From: an uncultured Opitutia bacterium
GTDB lineage: Bacteria > Verrucomicrobiota > Verrucomicrobiia > Opitutales > Opitutaceae
DNA: 64,000 nt
Assembly (NCBI GenBank): GCA_903896015.1
Contig: CAITWF010000027.1
Location: 1 to 64,000, forward strand
Direction: 5' to 3'
In this document: piece by piece, positions 53,898-61,287 of the stretch
Layout of the letters: each line of letters opens with the position of its first letter
How positions within the stretch are numbered: the stretch's first letter is position 1
Translations under genes and position numbers: made by a program
The notes under the pieces: model-generated
Told to the model about the DNA's origin: nothing
Databases searched by the model: none
What the model saw: only the letters and a program-made list of their open reading frames with translations

Positions 53898-55694
53898 TTA
53901 TTTTCCCCGAGGCGGCGGCAGCGTGGGGTTGACGAGCACGTAGAGGTTTTCCGCCAGTTTTTGCGGCGCTATCAACGGGAATTCCCGCGGCAGAACCCCG
54001 GTCAAGAGGCCCGCGTAAATCTCACCCCACTCGCCGTAGCGGTTCGTCGCGGTCGTGAGCGAGCCGGGTAGCATGGGCTTGGCATTGAGCTCGCTGAAAA
54101 ACGGCCGATCGAGGGTGCGCGGGGTCAGGAGGAGTTCTCCGAGCGGTTGCTCCAGCGTCACGGCGTAGAAGTCGTGCAAACGCGGCGGCTGAGCCCACGC
54201 CCGCACGCCGCCATACCACGCGACCCCCGCCGGCACATCCGCCATCACGCCGAAGCGGCCGAGCGCGCCACGGCGGTCGAGCTCGGTCCGCATACCTTGG
54301 AAGAGTGCGGGGAAATACGGCGGATATTGAAAATGCAGCCGCCGCGGCTCAAGTGCGTCGTGCGCCAGTGGCAGAGCCTGCAAGCACAACAGCGCGATCG
54401 CCATCGAACCCGGCCAACGCGACAGCACCGCATGACTGCCGAGCAACACATAAAAAAAACCGGCGCCAAACACGATCACGAGCGGCGCCATCCACACCGC
54501 CACGAGTCGCTCGCTCTCGCCGGAATTCAACGCGGCTTGCGACACCAAGAGCACCGCGATCCCCGCCGTCAGCACCCAGCGCAGGCGCTCAACGACCGCG
54601 GAACGAAACGTATAGAGCAGGCCCGCGACGAAGAACGCCGCGAACCACATCGCGCCGCCGGACCACAGTCGCGTCTTCAAATTTTCCTGCAGTGAAGTGA
54701 GCGTCTTGTTGCCGAGCTTGTTGAGATCGATCGCCGGCAGGTCGGGTGAAAGCGTGGCCCGCAACGTTGCCGGCTCCGCCGTCGGATCGCCGAATTTAAG
54801 CGCGATGTTCTGCGCCGCGAGTGCCGCGGGTTGGCCGGTAAGCGCGACGTTGCGCGCGATCCACGGGCCCGCAATCAGCACAAAGCCGAGCGCGACGGCG
54901 CCCCACGCGAGACCGCGCGCGCCCCGAAAGCGAATCGGCGCGTAGACCAGCGCCACGAGCACGAGTGCCCCGGCGGAATACTCCGCGAGAAACATCAGAC
55001 CGCACACTGCGCCTAGCGCCGCGAGCCAACCGAGCAAGGCCGGCGACGGCGAAGGCTGGTCCGCCCGCGATTCGATCCGCTGCCAGATGAGAAAGGCCGT
55101 AAGTGCGAGCACCATCAGCAGCGGCGTGCCGTTGACCGCAACCGTCTGCTGCCAGATCGAAACTGCGAGCAGCACCGCAAACGCCGCGAGCCACCCCACC
55201 CTTGCCTCGAACAGCGAACGGCCGAGCAGAAATGTCAGCCACGCCGCGAGCCAGAGCAGCACGAGATTAAGCCCGAGCAAAAAATAGTCCGCCGCGAAAC
55301 CATCCGGCGGCATGGGCGGCGAGGCAAACAACGCCTCACGTTGCGCTTCCGGCCACAGCCGCAGTGCACCCGCGATTACGATCGAATAGAGTGGTGCCTG
55401 ATGCAGCTCCGGCGGCGGGTGCGAAGGATCAAACCGACGGCCGCGCTTCGCGAGAAACGCGACGTCCTGCGGGTAGTTGACGTTGGTCGTGAAGCCCGCG
55501 CCGCACGCGAGCTGCCGGCCGGTGTCAGCTTGCACAAGCGTGAGTTCGCTTACGGGGCCGTGAAATTGCTTCCACGCGACGAGCAGCGACAGCGCGAGGG
55601 TGCAGGCGAGCGCCGCCGCGAGCCGGATCCAGCGAGCGCCGCCGCCAACTTCGAGCCAGTGAACCAACTCCTGCGCGGTTTGCGGCCGGCTCAT
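53898..55694 (-). CDS. Polytopic GT-C-like membrane protein
   Basis: A 598-residue inner-membrane protein with about ten helices and a soluble C-terminal domain of about 170 residues. The first periplasmic loop (ELTLVQADTGRQLACGAGF ... NVNYPQDVAFLAKRG) is large, as in glycosyltransferase family 39/83 (ArnT/PMT) proteins. The first Asp that would act as catalytic base is not clear. ATG 55694 overlaps the stop of the NtrC regulator gene (ATGA), so the regulator and this protein are co-translated. Function in envelope glycan building is inferred from fold and neighbours. Confidence 0.78.
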   Translation of the reverse strand: MSRPQTAQELVHWLEVGGGARWIRLAAALACTLALSLLVAWKQFHGPVSELTLVQADTGRQLACGAGFTTNVNYPQDVAFLAKRGRRFDPSHPPPELHQAPLYSIVIAGALRLWPEAQREALFASPPMPPDGFAADYFLLGLNLVLLWLAAWLTFLLGRSLFEARVGWLAAFAVLLAVSIWQQTVAVNGTPLLMVLALTAFLIWQRIESRADQPSPSPALLGWLAALGAVCGLMFLAEYSAGALVLVALVYAPIRFRGARGLAWGAVALGFVLIAGPWIARNVALTGQPAALAAQNIALKFGDPTAEPATLRATLSPDLPAIDLNKLGNKTLTSLQENLKTRLWSGGAMWFAAFFVAGLLYTFRSAVVERLRWVLTAGIAVLLVSQAALNSGESERLVAVWMAPLVIVFGAGFFYVLLGSHAVLSRWPGSMAIALLCLQALPLAHDALEPRRLHFQYPPYFPALFQGMRTELDRRGALGRFGVMADVPAGVAWYGGVRAWAQPPRLHDFYAVTLEQPLGELLLTPRTLDRPFFSELNAKPMLPGSLTTATNRYGEWGEIYAGLLTGVLPREFPLIAPQKLAENLYVLVNPTLPPPRGK

Positions 55695-57082
55695 TTGTCC
55701 GTGACGTCGAGCTCCGGCCACTGCGCAATCTTGCGGTGCAGCGTGCGGCGGCTCACCCCCATCAGCTTGGCGGCAACCGTGCGGTTGCCGCGCGACTTGA
55801 GCAGCGCCTCGCGCAGGAGCCGCTTTTCGTTTTCCTCCACGGAAAATTGATTCACGACGGGCGCGCCGCCGGGAGTCGGCGCCGCATGGGTCGCGCTGCC
55901 GCCTTCGCCACGGAATTTCGGCTCAAGATCGTATTCGGTGAGACTGCCGCCGCGACGAAGCACGACGGCATTCTCGCAAAAATTCCGCAGCTCCCGGATG
56001 TTGCCCGGCCAGGCATAAGCTTGGAGCGTCTGAAGCGCACCGCTTTCGACCGTGAGCGGCGGGACGCCGTTTTCCTCGGAGAAGACTTTGATGAAGTGCG
56101 CGAGAAGGAGCGGAATATCCTCCCGGCGTTCCCGCAACGGAGGCATCGCGAGCCGCACGACGTTAAGTCGGAAAAATAGATCGTCGCGGAATTTTCCGTC
56201 GCGCACCATCTGCTCGAGGTTGCGGTTGGTCGCTGCGACGAGACGCACGTCGAGCTCCAGTGGCTTGCTGCCGCCGACGCGCTCGACGGATTTAGTCTCA
56301 AGGAAACGCAGCAGCTTGACCTGCGTCGAAGCGGAGATTTCGCCGATTTCGTCGAGGAAGATCGTGCCGCCGTCGGCGGACTCGAAGCGGCCAATGCGGC
56401 GCTCGACCGCCCCGGTAAACGCGCCGCGCTCGTGGCCGAAGAGTTCGCTTTCGAGGAGGTTTTCCGAAAGCGCCGCACAGTGGACCGCGACGAACGGCGC
56501 GCGGGCGCGCGGACTCGCCTGGTGGATCGCCTGCGCGATCAACTCCTTGCCCGTGCCCGACTCTCCTTCGATCAGGATCGTAGCGCGGGAGGGCGCGACG
56601 AGTTTCATCTTGTCGAGCACGGCCTTGAGTTTCGGCGAGGTGCCGATGATGCCATCGAGATTGAATTTTTCGTCGAGTCGCTCGTGCAACTGCTTCACCT
56701 CGACCTCGAGCGTCCGGGTCTTGAGCGCACGCTGGATGAGGACTTCAAGGCGCTCGATGTTGACGGGCTTTGTGAGAAAATCGACGGCGCCGCGCTTCAT
56801 CGCCTCGACGGCCGTATCGATGTTGCCGTAGGCGGTCATCATGAGGACGGCTGGGCGCTGCGCGAGCGCCAGGGCCTTGTCGATCACCTTGAGGCCGGAT
56901 TTGCCGGGCATCCGCAGGTCGGTGAGAACGACATCGAAGGGCTGCGCGTCGAGCAGGTTGAACGCCTCGTCAGCGCTCGCTGCGATCGTGACGTCGTAAT
57001 TTTCCGCAAGCGCCTGCTGAAGTCCCTCGCGGGTGTGTTTCTCGTCGTCGACGATGAGGACGCTGGGCACCATGCGCGTCAT
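55691..57082 (-). CDS. Sigma-54-dependent response regulator, NtrC family
   Basis: A 463-residue regulator. The receiver domain has Asp55 (VLTDLRMPG) and Lys105. The AAA+ domain has Walker A GESGTGKE at 173-180, the sigma-54-contacting loop GAFTGA at 220-225 and a Walker B GGTIFLDEIGE. The C-terminal Fis-type helix-turn-helix (GNRTVAAKLMGVSRRTLHRKI) binds DNA. The histidine kinase is not adjacent; a PAS kinase is encoded 3 kb away. The downstream barrel gene has a sigma-54-type promoter. Confidence 0.95.
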   Translation of the reverse strand: MTRMVPSVLIVDDEKHTREGLQQALAENYDVTIAASADEAFNLLDAQPFDVVLTDLRMPGKSGLKVIDKALALAQRPAVLMMTAYGNIDTAVEAMKRGAVDFLTKPVNIERLEVLIQRALKTRTLEVEVKQLHERLDEKFNLDGIIGTSPKLKAVLDKMKLVAPSRATILIEGESGTGKELIAQAIHQASPRARAPFVAVHCAALSENLLESELFGHERGAFTGAVERRIGRFESADGGTIFLDEIGEISASTQVKLLRFLETKSVERVGGSKPLELDVRLVAATNRNLEQMVRDGKFRDDLFFRLNVVRLAMPPLRERREDIPLLLAHFIKVFSEENGVPPLTVESGALQTLQAYAWPGNIRELRNFCENAVVLRRGGSLTEYDLEPKFRGEGGSATHAAPTPGGAPVVNQFSVEENEKRLLREALLKSRGNRTVAAKLMGVSRRTLHRKIAQWPELDVTDK

Positions 57083-57137: not shown

Positions 57138-57815
57138 TCAACGCGGCGGAGCGGCTTCGACACCAATCTTCTCGGCGGCAAGCGCAATTTGACTGAGCGT
57201 GATCGTAGGCGGCGGAGTGTCGTCGATCAGCGCGAGAAATTTCGCCCGGCGCTCAGTGAGGAGTTCGCGCACTTTTGCTTCCTGGTCAGGCGCCAGCTTG
57301 AGTTCCTTCTTCAACTGATCAAACCGCATAGTCACGGAGACCGAGGAGAGCACACCGAAGAGTGGACGTTGCTGGAGTCGGAATATCTGCTCGTCGCTGA
57401 GCGGGGCGGTCTCGGCGGCGATGGCGGCTTCACCCTTCGCGCGTCGGTCGGCCCAGCGTTTTTGGAGGGTGGCGTATCGGCCGCGCTGGGTGGCGTCGAG
57501 GAGCGGCGTGAGGGCAAGGTCGAAGTTGGCGTCGAGCCGGTCGAGACTCGCGCGGTAACTTTTGATCTGGGAACTGTAGCGCTGAATTTCGTTGAAGAGT
57601 TTGGTGCGATCGAGGGGCTGCTCGCGACTGGCGCGTTTCGCATTTTTGGGATCAGCGGCGGACGCAGCGGCAGGGGTGCCAGGGCCGTGTGCGAACTCGC
57701 TGCCGATCGCCGCCGGCGGGGGCGGCACCGTGTCATCCGCGAGCCACATGTGAGCGCCGAAACCCGCGCCGAAGACGAGCGCGGTAAAAAGCACAATGAG
57801 CACCCGTTGCTTCAC
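57138..57815 (-). CDS. Periplasmic helical protein, possible CnrX/Spy-like sensor
   Basis: A 225-residue protein: N-terminal membrane helix (VLIVLFTALVFGAGFGAHMWL), then a proline- and Ala-rich linker, then a periplasmic helical region. LSDEQIFRLQQRPL and LAPDQEAKVRELLTERRAKFLAL resemble the LTxxQ segments of Spy/CpxP and the helical hairpin of CnrX-type sensors. The GTG start overlaps the stop of the upstream gene (GTGA). The likely role is a sensor for the neighbouring ECF sigma factor; the stimulus is not known. Confidence 0.68.
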   Translation of the reverse strand: MKQRVLIVLFTALVFGAGFGAHMWLADDTVPPPPAAIGSEFAHGPGTPAAASAADPKNAKRASREQPLDRTKLFNEIQRYSSQIKSYRASLDRLDANFDLALTPLLDATQRGRYATLQKRWADRRAKGEAAIAAETAPLSDEQIFRLQQRPLFGVLSSVSVTMRFDQLKKELKLAPDQEAKVRELLTERRAKFLALIDDTPPPTITLSQIALAAEKIGVEAAPPR

Positions 57816-58180
57816 AGCGTCTGATCCAGCTCGTCGGCTTCTTGGGCGAGTTGCTGCCAGCCGGCCAGATTGCGCTCGTTTTCGACGCGCGCGTTGTGGG
57901 CGTGGAGGTAGACGACAGCAAGGAGACACACGGCAGCTGTGGCGGCGCCGAAGACGAGCTGCTCGCTGAGCGTGAGGCGGCGCGGGATTTCGCGCGCGGC
58001 GCGGAGGACACGGGCGGCGAAGCCGGGGCGGAGTTGCGTGGCGGCGTGCGTGTGGAGCTGCTCCCACTCGGCGGCAGCGGGGCCGCGGGCAATTCGGAGG
58101 GTGCGATTGGCGAAGTCCGCGCGGAGTTGCGCGGAGGCGTGCATCTGTAAGTCACGCCAGGCTTGGTTTTCAGTCTTCAT
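57812..58180 (-). CDS. Short membrane protein with duplicated helix, probable anti-sigma factor
   Basis: A 122-residue protein: two copies of a 25-residue helical unit (residues 8-32 and 39-63), one transmembrane helix (about 74-96), then a short periplasmic helix. The units share 14 of 25 positions, including W, HA, QLR and FA. Cytoplasmic helices before a membrane anchor, right after an ECF sigma gene, fit an anti-sigma factor. No zinc HxxxCxxC motif is seen, so it is not a ZAS protein. The ATG overlaps the sigma gene end by 11 bases. Confidence 0.7.
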   Translation of the reverse strand: MKTENQAWRDLQMHASAQLRADFANRTLRIARGPAAAEWEQLHTHAATQLRPGFAARVLRAAREIPRRLTLSEQLVFGAATAAVCLLAVVYLHAHNARVENERNLAGWQQLAQEADELDQTL

Positions 58181-58718
58181 GGTCAGGTTGGTAATGTTCG
58201 CGAAGGTGTTCACGCGCGCGGTGGAGGCGGGCCTTCACGGCGGCGACGGAGGTCTCAAGGGTCTCGGCGATCTCCGCATGGCTGCGGCCTTCCTGCACGA
58301 GGGCGAGGAGGGCGCGATCCTGCGGGCGGAGTTGGGCTAACGCGTGGCGGAGAGCATCGAGTTCCTCGGTATCGACGGCTCCGGGCGGCTCGGGAATGTT
58401 TTCGTGCTCGTCACCAAAAGGAAGGAAGATGCGGCGGAGCTTCTGCCGGCGGAGCTGATCGATACACGTGTTGCGGGCGAGGCGGAAGAGCCACGACTCG
58501 AACTGCGCGGGCGCTTGCAGACGATCGAGCGCGCGGATCATTTTAATGAAGACCTGCTGCGACAGATCCTCGACGTAATCGCTCCGGTTGGTCATAGCGA
58601 AGACGAAGCCAGCGACCCGATGCTGGTAGGCGACAATGAGCTCCCGTTGGGCGATTTCGTCGCCCTTTTGAGCCCGGCGAACAAGGTCGGCCAGCGCGGT
58701 CGTTGCAGTTTGATCCAT
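58170..58718 (-). CDS. ECF-type RNA polymerase sigma factor
   Basis: A 182-residue sigma-70 family protein with region 2 (AYQHRVAGFVFAMTNRSDYVEDLSQQVFIKMI) and region 4 (LRPQDRALLALVQEGRSHAEIAETLETSVAAVKARLHRARE). The region-2 core W-F-R-L-A-R segment (ESWLFRLARNTCIDQ) is present. The start MDQTATTALAD was chosen over a longer frame. It overlaps the next gene, a probable anti-sigma protein. Confidence 0.93.
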   Translation of the reverse strand: MDQTATTALADLVRRAQKGDEIAQRELIVAYQHRVAGFVFAMTNRSDYVEDLSQQVFIKMIRALDRLQAPAQFESWLFRLARNTCIDQLRRQKLRRIFLPFGDEHENIPEPPGAVDTEELDALRHALAQLRPQDRALLALVQEGRSHAEIAETLETSVAAVKARLHRAREHLREHYQPDHED

Positions 58719-58836
58719 GCGGAGTCCATTGTGGTGTGCAGCAAGACGGGCGAATGGCCAGAAAGATTCGGCGCAGCGGAGCCGTCCTTGCAATCGGCGC
58801 AACCTTCGCCTGAACTAGGCATCCCACGTCTTTTCC

Positions 58837-59487
58837 ATGATCCTAACCACGCCCCGACTTCTTTGCGTCGCCGTCTTCAGCCTAGCTCTTGCCGGGCTCG
58901 CTGGTTGCAAAAGCGCCCCCTACCAGCGCGACATGATGACCGATGCCCTGACGGCCGGCGAGCAGCCGGTCGCGATGCGCGGCGAGAGCCTCTTTCTCGA
59001 TGGCAAAATTAGCGCCGTAGCCACAGTGAGCCGCGGCTTCGGCAAGGGCGGCAAAGGCGGAGTGGCCACCACCAAGGACCGCAAGCGCGATGCCGACGTC
59101 TTCGGGGAAGTCTACAATGTCGGCTACGGCGACTCCGAGGACGATCAGAAGGAAGCCATCGAGGAATACTATCGTATGGCCCGGGCCCAACGCGCCGCTG
59201 GCAGCCCCATGCCGCCCGTCACACTGCGCGTCGCCTTCGAGAACAAAGGCACTGCACCGATTGACGTGGAGATCACGGAGGTAAATTCCGAGCTCGGTAA
59301 CTTCGCCGTCCGCCCGCCCAAACTTTCGCTCGCGCCCGGCCAGTCCGGTGCACTCGAGCCGATGATTTCGCAACTCGGCGTTACAAGCGACGAAATCCCC
59401 CTGAAAGTCGAAGTCCGCTACGCCGGCAAAAAGGAATCAAAGATTCTCACGATCAAGAATCTGATTCTCCCGTCGCTGAAGAAATAG
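58837..59487 (+). CDS. Lipoprotein of unknown function
   Basis: A 216-residue lipoprotein with lipobox LAGC (Cys24). After it is a polar region with Lys-rich GKGGKGGVATTKDRK, and a beta domain near residues 125-205 (VTLRVAFENKGTAPIDVEITEVNSELGNFAV). The beta part suggests an Ig-like or binding domain. It is divergent from the ECF sigma gene, sharing a 118-base promoter region, so it is a candidate target of that sigma factor. Confidence 0.75.
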   Translation: MILTTPRLLCVAVFSLALAGLAGCKSAPYQRDMMTDALTAGEQPVAMRGESLFLDGKISAVATVSRGFGKGGKGGVATTKDRKRDADVFGEVYNVGYGDSEDDQKEAIEEYYRMARAQRAAGSPMPPVTLRVAFENKGTAPIDVEITEVNSELGNFAVRPPKLSLAPGQSGALEPMISQLGVTSDEIPLKVEVRYAGKKESKILTIKNLILPSLKK

Positions 59488-59569: not shown

Positions 59570-60064
59570 ATGAAAAGCCCGTTGTGGTTGACCGCAGTTC
59601 TGCTCTCCGGCTTTGCGCTGATCGTCGCTGGCTGCGCCGCCGCCGGCGACAAGCCTATCCGGCCGCGCACCGCATCCCGGACCTTTGCCCTTGTCGTGAC
59701 CGTCAACGGCGGCACGCAGCCCTCGCCCGAACAGTGGACCGCGTTGCGCACGACGTTCACCGAAATGCTCGCCAAGCGCCGCTACACCCTCATCGAAAAC
59801 CCAGTTCACGCGGCGACCCTTCTCCACGCCAACTTTGTCACTCCACCCAGCGATCCACTCGCCGGCACCGCCATCGTGCTCGCAGTTGAGCAATCGCCGC
59901 CGCCCCTCTCGATCGGTTATCCCGTGGCAGGCAACTACGGACCACCCCGCGTGTCCCTCGCCAGCTTCGATCCCGCGGCGCGCGCCGGCGATCGCACGAT
60001 CTACCTCGCGCCGAAAGCCGCAGTCCCCTCACCCGCCACCGCGCCGGAAATCGGGCGGTTCTGA
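59570..60064 (+). CDS. Small lipoprotein of unknown function
   Basis: A 164-residue lipoprotein with lipobox VAGC (Cys22). The mature region has a beta-helical domain of about 100 residues (FALVVTVNGGTQPSPEQWTALRTTFTEML) and a Pro-rich tail ending in APEIGRF. It lies 82 bases after the preceding lipoprotein on the same strand, and converges on the histidine kinase gene. No family is recognised. Confidence 0.72.
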   Translation: MKSPLWLTAVLLSGFALIVAGCAAAGDKPIRPRTASRTFALVVTVNGGTQPSPEQWTALRTTFTEMLAKRRYTLIENPVHAATLLHANFVTPPSDPLAGTAIVLAVEQSPPPLSIGYPVAGNYGPPRVSLASFDPAARAGDRTIYLAPKAAVPSPATAPEIGRF

Positions 60065-60077
60065 CTCGGCTGCACGC

Positions 60078-61241
60078 TTAGCGCAGCATCCGCACGCGGC
60101 GATCCTTGCGCGGAAACTGGAGCGTCACAACCGTCCCAATGCCCTCCTTGCTCTCCAATCCAATCTGTCCGCCGTGTTCGCGCATGATGCGCTGGACGAT
60201 CATCAGGCCGAGGCCGTGCCCGCCGGGCTTCGTCGTGTGATACGGCTGGAAGAGCCTCAGCAAATCCTCCTGCTTGATGCCCACACCGCTGTCACCAAAG
60301 AGGAGAAACACGCTGTCATCGTCCGCGCGCGATTTCACCTTCAACTTTCCGCCGGGCTGCATCGCCTCAAGTGCGTTCTTCGTGACGTTGAAAAAAACCT
60401 GCTTCAACTGGTTTCGATCGGCCATGACGGGTGGCAGCGTCGCCGGTGTCTCCGCCTCGACCGTGATGCCGCGATCGGCGAATTCCCGCTGCTGAAAACG
60501 CAGCACCTCGGCGAGCACGTCCGCGAGATTGGTCTCCGCCAGATCCGGCGGCTGCGGGCGGATTGCTTCAAGGAAGTTTCGCACGATGCCATCGAGCCGC
60601 GTGACCTCGTCGCGACACACGCGCACCGACTCCGCGATCGAATCGGCATCCTTGGACGCCTTCATTTTCTTCAGCTTTCGGTCAAGCAGCTGCAGGTGAA
60701 TCGTGAGCGAGTTTAGCGGGTTGCCGAGTTCGTGTGCCACACCGGCGGCGAGCAACAGCACCGACGAGGTGCGCTCGTCTTCGATTCGCTTTTCGGTCGT
60801 CAGCTTGTCGCGCGTGATATCGGTCAGGATGACCGCAAAACGTTTCGGCTCGCCGCGGACCTCGCTGCGAAACGGCACCAGGTAGAGTCGCACCGTGCGC
60901 GGCTCCGGATAGGTCAACTCAAACTCCCGCGCCATCACCGGCGATACCGCCGCGGCGTCCTCGTCGAGCGACGGGCGAAGGCCGGGCACGAGCCGCCAGA
61001 GCGTCTGCCCCGCGAGTTCGTCGTCGCCCAGCCCGATCAGCCGATGCGCCGCGGGATTCGCGTATTCGATCGTGCCGTCAGTGTCGATGACCAGCACGCC
61101 TTCCTGCAGCGCGTTGAAAATCTCCTCGAACAACCCACGCTCACGCGCGAGGCGCTGGACGAGGTTGGCCAGGTTGACCGAGTCGAGCGTGTCGAGTCGC
61201 CCGAGCACGCGATCGAGCGAGGTGTGTTTTTTTCCGGCCAT
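60078..61241 (-). CDS. PAS-domain histidine kinase (NtrB-like)
   Basis: A 387-residue cytoplasmic kinase: PAS domain at about 41-145, dimerisation and phospho-acceptor His170 (AAGVAHELGNPLNS), and an ATPase domain with N box (NVTKNALEAMQ), G1 (DSGVGI) and G2 (GGHGLGL). No transmembrane helix is seen, as in NtrB. It is the nearest kinase to the NtrC-type regulator at 55691-57082 and a candidate partner. The start MAGKKHTS is preferred to an in-frame ATG 27 bases upstream. Confidence 0.93.
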   Translation of the reverse strand: MAGKKHTSLDRVLGRLDTLDSVNLANLVQRLARERGLFEEIFNALQEGVLVIDTDGTIEYANPAAHRLIGLGDDELAGQTLWRLVPGLRPSLDEDAAAVSPVMAREFELTYPEPRTVRLYLVPFRSEVRGEPKRFAVILTDITRDKLTTEKRIEDERTSSVLLLAAGVAHELGNPLNSLTIHLQLLDRKLKKMKASKDADSIAESVRVCRDEVTRLDGIVRNFLEAIRPQPPDLAETNLADVLAEVLRFQQREFADRGITVEAETPATLPPVMADRNQLKQVFFNVTKNALEAMQPGGKLKVKSRADDDSVFLLFGDSGVGIKQEDLLRLFQPYHTTKPGGHGLGLMIVQRIMREHGGQIGLESKEGIGTVVTLQFPRKDRRVRMLR

Positions 61242-61287
61242 CGGAGGATTTTGTGCACGAGCGCGCACGCCCGGTCAACGATGCGCC

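Follow-up and report, generated by a model that had tools for sequence, protein, structure and literature searches.

The 64,000-nucleotide window analysed here, the opening stretch of contig CAITWF010000027.1 from an uncultured Opitutia bacterium, harbors a cluster of three overlapping genes on its minus strand which, judged from sequence, quite probably forms an autoregulated envelope-stress unit of sigma factor, anti-sigma factor and sensor. The first gene encodes an extracytoplasmic function (ECF) sigma factor of 182 aa (58170..58718). It is followed by an anti-sigma candidate of 122 aa (57812..58180), with two predicted cytoplasmic helix-pair units, one transmembrane helix and a short periplasmic tail carrying the motif NLAxW, and by a membrane-anchored, periplasmic helical sensor candidate of 225 aa with a GTG start (57138..57815), which matches the chaperone Spy. 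Such a triad probably lets certain environmental bacteria, the Opitutae, switch genes on when the cell envelope is disturbed. In layout it is reminiscent of switches known to sense nickel and copper.

A first-pass annotation, made from the DNA letters alone, had named the three products an ECF sigma factor, a single-pass small protein and an anchored helical protein, and its coordinates, lengths and overlaps survived rechecking: the sigma factor and small protein genes share 11 bases, and the small protein and sensor genes share 4. Differences between the window and the related locus L093, counted at codon positions 1/2/3, are 9/3/59 for the sigma factor, 21/9/51 for the small protein and 37/34/111 for the sensor. 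Relatives of the sigma factor (E<=1e-45) are found in 21 of the 61 genomes of the family, nine further matches with E-values of 1e-26 to 1e-36 being taken as paralogues. The order sigma factor, small protein, sensor is present in all 20 loci that were parsed (L039-L058); the weakest of the 21, L059 (53% identity), lacks the motif used and was left out. A pattern-based scan of one genome per species across 84,980 species returned 77 loci, of which 75 lie in records named Opitutae, Opitutaceae, Verrucomicrobia and similar, while two rhizobial sigma factors were dropped. Two of the 75 are not testable, since the contig of L145 ends 105 bases past the sigma gene and the sigma gene of L161 runs over the contig edge. 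In the 73 testable contigs, as in the window, the small protein always lies directly after the sigma factor, as chosen by script among the frames starting near the sigma stop, and the sensor comes next in 71 (the contigs of L102 and L146 end before it). With starts picked by the script, the sigma gene overlaps the anti-sigma gene in 72 of 74 loci; the anti-sigma gene in turn overlaps the gene for the sensor in 63 of 71 contig loci and in the window. Because this order recurs in every testable related locus, and because the changes that separate the window from L093 fall mainly on third codon positions, the triad is more than a chance arrangement.

The same gene order, assigned by profile, is found in six modules (L074, L076, L077, L080, L083 and L086) from five genomes that belong to two further families of the class. 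These modules came from a sensor search of 286 genomes of the class, which gave matches in 17 and led to the inspection of 12 weaker or class-level loci; the full triad was not seen within the sequence stretch examined at L079, L081, L082, L084, L087 and L088. In a sample of the phylum, the sensor profile reached E<=1e-6 in only 9 of 387 genomes, and the module is therefore restricted. No paper was recognised as dealing with this module in a literature search that covered few subscription papers.

Regions 2 and 4 are both present in the sigma factor (Pfam Sigma70_r2, PF04542, 1.1e-16; Sigma70_r4_2, PF08281, 4.5e-15), and its profile matches among PDB sequences include RpoE, SigW and CnrH. Upstream of the operon, on the minus strand at 58744..58769, lies an ECF-type promoter, GAATC-N16-CGTC(T), that is conserved across loci. 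Across the window and 74 contigs, 74 of the 75 loci have the bipartite pattern GNA[AT]C-N16-CGTC 48-78 bases 5′ of the sigma start; when the same stretches were shuffled in 200 rounds, 0.335 loci matched on average and never more than 3. The sole miss, L140, has GCACC at the same place, and the pattern is also found in all six distant modules, a count made without shuffle control. Coding conservation does not explain it, since the spacer is variable and the site shifts by single bases relative to the start. A -35 and a -10 box at a spacing of 16-17 are typical of ECF sigma factors, and the triad sigma factor probably activates its own transcription from this site. The -35 box reads ATC in 62 loci and AAC in 12; residue 159, in the region 4 helix-turn-helix, is alanine in 61 of the 62 ATC loci and valine in 11 of the 12 AAC loci, and residues 141, 147, 150 and 154 likewise track the box. 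Such an association, though confounded with descent, would be expected if the triad sigma factor reads this promoter. The first-pass proposal of a self-contained sigma/anti-sigma/sensor unit is thus well supported by operon structure, deep co-conservation and the autoregulatory promoter.

The sensor is modelled as an N-terminal anchor helix, a disordered linker and a helical domain (pLDDT 85.5, pTM 0.66), and an N-terminal hydrophobic segment is found in 68 of 72 sensors. The LTxxQ-like segments noticed in the first-pass annotation are real, though weak: the LTXXQ family (PF07813) is matched at E<=0.1 by 9 of 20 homologues, with a best value of 4.9e-4, and the window sensor falls below the Pfam gathering score (12.8 bits against a cut-off of 24.3, E 0.2). 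When profiles built from 20 or 72 sensor sequences are compared with the PDB sequences, they match Escherichia coli Spy at E 1.3e-4 and 1.7e-4, respectively, and the match falls in two stretches whose order is swapped. Hairpin A of the sensor (residues 81-134; 57414..57575, minus strand) matches the second LTxxQ hairpin of Spy, and hairpin B (residues 141-199; 57219..57395, minus strand) matches the first.

This swap was examined by scoring circular permutants of Spy, cut every 4 residues, against the sensor profile, alongside 25 shuffled sequences cut every 8 residues. The best single domain of Spy rises from 16.0 bits in native order to 33.0 bits when permuted, the shuffled sequences averaging 1.7 and reaching 3.9 at most. 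For CpxP the score goes from 5.7 to 12.5 bits (shuffled maximum 4.7), while ZraP scores above its shuffles without a gain from permutation (9.4 to 9.9). CnrX scores no better than its shuffles (maximum 2.2) in native (-0.6) or permuted order (-0.2), and four CnrX homologues, once permuted, reach 3.5 to 9.5 bits against shuffled maxima of 3.0 to 6.4. Gains of less than 1 bit were obtained in the control comparisons of Spy with CpxP, of the CnrX family with Spy and of the sensor profile with two distant sensors. L084, a protein of the class with its hairpins in Spy order, gains little (15.3 to 17.0 bits), which speaks against a clean generalisation. A Spy-like domain suggests that the signal may be an envelope protein or another client.

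There is no conserved histidine or cysteine column in the 72 sensors (best His 28/72, best Cys 2/72), which argues against a metal site of the CnrX type. In nine aligned CnrX-type proteins, by contrast, the metal ligands of CnrX (H42, H46, E63, H119 and M123) are invariant; the triad sensor has no counterparts. A true CnrYXH-type metal response, in which binding of a metal ion by the periplasmic protein would release the sigma factor and so turn on metal efflux, is improbable on these grounds, even though the three CnrYXH roles stand together in one operon and CnrX homologues on alphaproteobacterial plasmids come with a sigma factor and a small protein, in most cases next to copper genes. The gene order is also unlike that of Cnr, and a profile comparison of the sensor with CnrX gave a probability of only 3.8%; CnrX was rejected as the family of the sensor, permuted Spy resembling it more. 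None of seven neighbours followed is a metal gene: two lipoprotein-like genes, a histidine kinase and a response regulator were scanned against Pfam, and a glycosyltransferase-like gene, an outer-membrane gene and one for RNase HII were named from their reading frames. The metal response gains some credit from SigAb, a sigma factor which, in the part of PMC12153292 that was available, reacts to copper. The first-pass interpretation is therefore supported in part: its label of a CnrX-like sensor is apt for the role of the protein and unsupported for metal sensing.

The small protein of the window matches no Pfam or NCBIfam family, and 20 of its homologues gave no convincing family (best E 0.018, a DUF in two members). 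The HxxxCxxC motif of Class I (ASDI) zinc-type anti-sigma factors is found in 0 of 74 homologues, as expected from the first-pass remark that the protein has neither a zinc motif nor recognised homology. One strong hydrophobic segment is present in all 74; in the window it spans residues 75-93 (57902..57958, minus strand), the maximum Kyte-Doolittle window. Net charge is positive before and negative after this segment in the four small proteins examined, which places the units in the cytoplasm and the tail in the periplasm. The putative cytoplasmic helical part is well conserved, and in the tail the NLAxW motif is kept, its tryptophan being invariant in the homologue alignments.

The cytoplasmic part is built from a unit that occurs once or twice. 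In the window, unit 1 (residues 8-32; 58085..58159, minus strand) is followed 31 residues later by unit 2 (residues 39-63; 57992..58066, minus strand), and the segments W8-R32 and W39-R63 are 56% identical. AlphaFold places helices at residues 4-18, 23-32, 36-49, 54-63 and 71-121, so that both units are modelled, with moderate confidence, as helix pairs. Homologues fall into two length classes, one of 87-108 aa with a single unit (n=30) and one of 120-127 aa with a tandem (n=44), in which the unit reads WxxLxxHAAxQLxPGFAxRVLRAAR. The single unit of the short class aligns with the second, membrane-proximal copy, leaving unit 1 without a counterpart in 30 of 74 homologues, and the spacing between the unit tryptophans is exactly 31 residues in 44 of 44 two-unit proteins. 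The "duplicated helix" by which the first-pass annotation characterised the protein is real in the window and fails as a defining trait. On the sigma tree, the one- or two-unit trait needs three changes, and the starred branches force three. Parsimony favours two gains and one loss (L126); one gain followed by many losses would also fit, because the 31-residue spacing is identical in both clades, and a tree of the unit itself, with 26 columns, is too short to decide between these histories.

The sequences themselves show the three genes with their order and co-conservation, the membrane segments, the promoter and the swapped hairpins of the sensor; from these we infer a cycle of sigma sequestration, sensor-tail contact, signal, release and regulon expression. 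At rest, the sigma factor would be tethered to the membrane through the cytoplasmic helix pair or pairs of the small protein. The sensor, anchored beside the small protein with its Spy-like helical domain in the periplasm, would engage the short periplasmic tail of its partner. A periplasmic change, such as a misfolded protein or other client on the Spy-like domain rather than metal at CnrX-type ligands, would loosen this complex and free the sigma factor. Free sigma factor would then transcribe its own operon from GNAWC-N16-CGTC, probably including the downstream NtrC-type regulator, and in some genomes may also transcribe the divergent lipoprotein gene. A more elaborate version, which we offer tentatively and consider on the whole rather unlikely, is that a circularly permuted Spy-type chaperone domain has been made into a membrane-bound stress sensor and joined to a "valency-tuned" tether. 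In this version the 31-residue helix-pair module, present once or twice in fixed phase and repeatedly gained or lost within one bacterial family, would set how tightly the sigma factor is held, for example with one unit for each sigma domain or one sigma factor for each unit.

Several observations weigh against the reading as an envelope-stress sigma/anti-sigma/sensor unit. The sensor model has no significant fold match: Foldseek gave none at E<=0.001 (best 0.75), and the best VIA-align result, Z 5.1 to a designed helical protein, carries little information when the query is a helix bundle. Among the Foldseek and VIA-align matches listed there is no Spy, CpxP or CnrX, which says nothing either way; the swapped order could hide a Spy fold from sequential aligners. 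Confidence in the anti-sigma model is moderate (pLDDT 74.8, pTM 0.28). The small protein has no significant homology to CnrY, with hhalign probabilities of 0.6% (two-unit) and 4.0% (one-unit) against nine CnrY-like proteins, although proteins as short as these can diverge beyond hhalign detection. Residue 106 of the sigma factor, in the linker and outside the DNA-reading domain, separates the AAC and ATC loci best, splitting the two sets completely, and descent is therefore a confounder of the association between the -35 box and region 4. Finally, the long form of the sigma promoter pattern has a single exact match in the whole genome of 4.96 Mb and so does not define a regulon beyond the locus, which suggests either a small regulon or laxer sites.

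The triad is flanked by the genes of a two-component pair. An NtrC-type (sigma-54) response regulator (55691..57082, minus strand; Pfam) begins 55 bases downstream of the sensor gene and probably shares an operon with the triad, and a PAS histidine kinase with no predicted membrane segment (60078..61268, minus strand; Pfam) lies upstream. Counts for neighbours refer to 74 contig loci (L161 left out) and are lowered by contig ends. The regulator is found downstream on the same strand in 60 of these loci, as a close relative in 44 and as a distant one of 34-37% identity in 16 (L098, L099, L103, L113-L116, L120-L122, L124, L125, L128, L135, L136 and L165); the position is therefore kept while the gene can change. 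The kinase lies upstream on the same strand in 61. Of the 61 family genomes, 60 carry the kinase at E<=1e-100 and 56 carry the regulator at E<=1e-200. Among 39 kinase-bearing genomes lacking the triad, the two genes lie no more than 400 bases apart, and count as adjacent, in 11, while another 11 have 1.1-6.6 kb of other DNA between them; in the other 17 they are far apart, on different contigs or opposite, or the regulator was not detected. They are adjacent in none of the 21 triad-bearing family genomes, and by comparison of coordinates 14 of these have the triad between the two genes. The triad thus occupies a variable slot inside a widespread two-component pair, and this slot may be a site of variable insertion within the operon of a two-component system.

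A relationship like that of ZraP with ZraS and ZraR could in principle exist here: the chief task of the sensor would be to act as a periplasmic chaperone or to modulate the kinase/NtrC-type pair on either side, and the sigma and anti-sigma factors would only set its dose. E. coli zraP adjoins zraSR, the sensor resembles Spy and CpxP, and the pair flanks the triad in most contig loci, directly so in the 14 family genomes just mentioned. Yet a kinase with no predicted membrane segment is unlikely to contact a periplasmic sensor directly, and both genes of the pair are present in most family genomes, triad or not. Triads are also found away from the pair, at L164 and L166 and in the six distant modules, which offer only a kinase relative of 31% identity (L266) and a partial regulator match of 29% (L265). 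We regard this explanation as improbable, slightly more so than the metal response. That the small protein is a sensor-docking membrane peptide rather than an anti-sigma factor, with the sigma factor governed by expression alone, is consistent with its lack of detectable homology to known anti-sigma domains and is very improbable, given its place directly after the sigma gene in 74 of 74 testable loci (overlapping in 72), the conservation of its putative cytoplasmic part and the brake that autoregulated ECF genes usually require.

Divergent from the sigma operon, on the plus strand, lies a gene for a lipoprotein of 216 aa (58837..59487), a relative of which is upstream and divergent in 59 of the 74 contig loci. 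It is followed on the same strand by a second small lipoprotein-like gene (59570-60064) with no family above threshold and a relative in only eight. A promoter-like GCAAC-N16-CATC, one base off the strict -10 box, points toward the divergent lipoprotein gene at 58799..58823 on the plus strand. In this orientation the strict pattern GMAAC-N16-CGTC is found in 17 of 60 loci with the gene, against 1 of 15 loci that lack it, and the looser GCAAC-N16-NGTC in 26 of the 60. Shuffling gave means of 0.16 for the strict and 0.3 for the looser pattern, with a maximum of 2 for each. The lipoprotein is possibly co-regulated with the sigma operon. A sigma-54 promoter, sought by eye in the divergent intergenic region from the consensus, was rejected, the spacing being wrong or not conserved.

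Two routes to a wider regulon were followed. Sites matching the sigma promoter with two mismatches number 101 in the genome of the window and 48 for a reversed control, which is too noisy, and a regulon drawn from them was rejected. The pattern GMAACYTTC-N12-CGTCT is found in eight of eight triad-bearing genomes examined, at 12 sites in total, and in each genome one site lies up to ~160 bases 5′ of a TolC-like gene. This site lies within the 3′-terminal part of a short open frame that is itself conserved (..CPTCGQPV..SPKLSAPLSVSRARQAGFTVLKRTSAGEFEKQ), and constraint on the coding sequence can therefore account for it; in genome G013 (L257/L332) the open frame is strongly diverged and the site persists, which speaks against a simple dismissal on coding grounds. 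A stricter 30-base TolC pattern, with at most one mismatch, occurs in 9 of the 61 family genomes, all near relatives and all among the 21 with the triad; the form GMAACTTTC-N12-CGTCT is conserved upstream of the TolC-like gene in nine triad genomes (L254-L261, L345). The TolC-like gene is not established as a regulon member and stands as an unproven lead.

The triad adds a lineage-specific variant to a little-studied mode of sigma control, in which a very small anti-sigma factor of non-zinc type is paired with a periplasmic helical sensor. Nature already compares one with two putative sigma-binding units, so the grip of an anti-sigma domain of ~30-60 residues on its sigma factor becomes testable. 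The sensor offers a way to ask whether a Spy-like chaperone fold reports directly on the envelope, and the conserved promoter is a ready reporter which, with the residue 159 association, gives a handle on -35 recognition.

One of the closest known parallels is CnrYXH of Cupriavidus metallidurans, with its alphaproteobacterial relatives, whose roles (CnrH, CnrY and CnrX) are those recognised in the first-pass annotation. Both systems combine an ECF sigma factor, a small membrane anti-sigma factor (in the triad, a candidate) and a membrane-anchored helical sensor with two LTxxQ-like motifs in an operon-like cluster of adjoining or overlapping genes. CnrYXH has the order anti-sigma, sensor, sigma and adjacent metal genes, whereas the triad has the order sigma, anti-sigma, sensor with none seen, and neither its anti-sigma candidate nor its sensor has detectable sequence homology to CnrY or CnrX. 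The swapped sensor hairpins are a further difference. CnrY grips CnrH with a pair of helices, of which one binds sigma4 and the other sigma2 (PMC7406223, as far as its text was available); one unit of the triad anti-sigma is likewise a modelled helix pair. On alphaproteobacterial plasmids, loci L171-L176 and L178 carry CnrX homologues with a "hypothetical" small protein in the CnrY position and a sigma factor, and copper genes adjoin L171, L173-L176 and L178. With Spy, CpxP and ZraP the triad sensor shares LTxxQ hairpins; unlike these three it is membrane-anchored and encoded beside an ECF sigma factor and an anti-sigma candidate, and relative to Spy and CpxP its hairpins are swapped. The RpoE8 operon of Azospirillum brasilense (sigma factor, hypothetical protein, periplasmic heavy metal sensor) is similar by description, in the available part of PMC12826043. 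SigAb-AabA-AabB of Acinetobacter baumannii, compared by description rather than sequence from the accessible part of PMC12153292, shares the gene order, overlapping genes and autoregulation. There, AabA is a 107-aa membrane anti-sigma factor modelled like CnrY, AabB is a periplasmic protein and anti-sigma activity was measured; the copper response and relA target reported for SigAb set that system apart. Without claiming membership in either, our best reading by analogy is that the triad would work like CnrYXH and SigAb-AabA-AabB.

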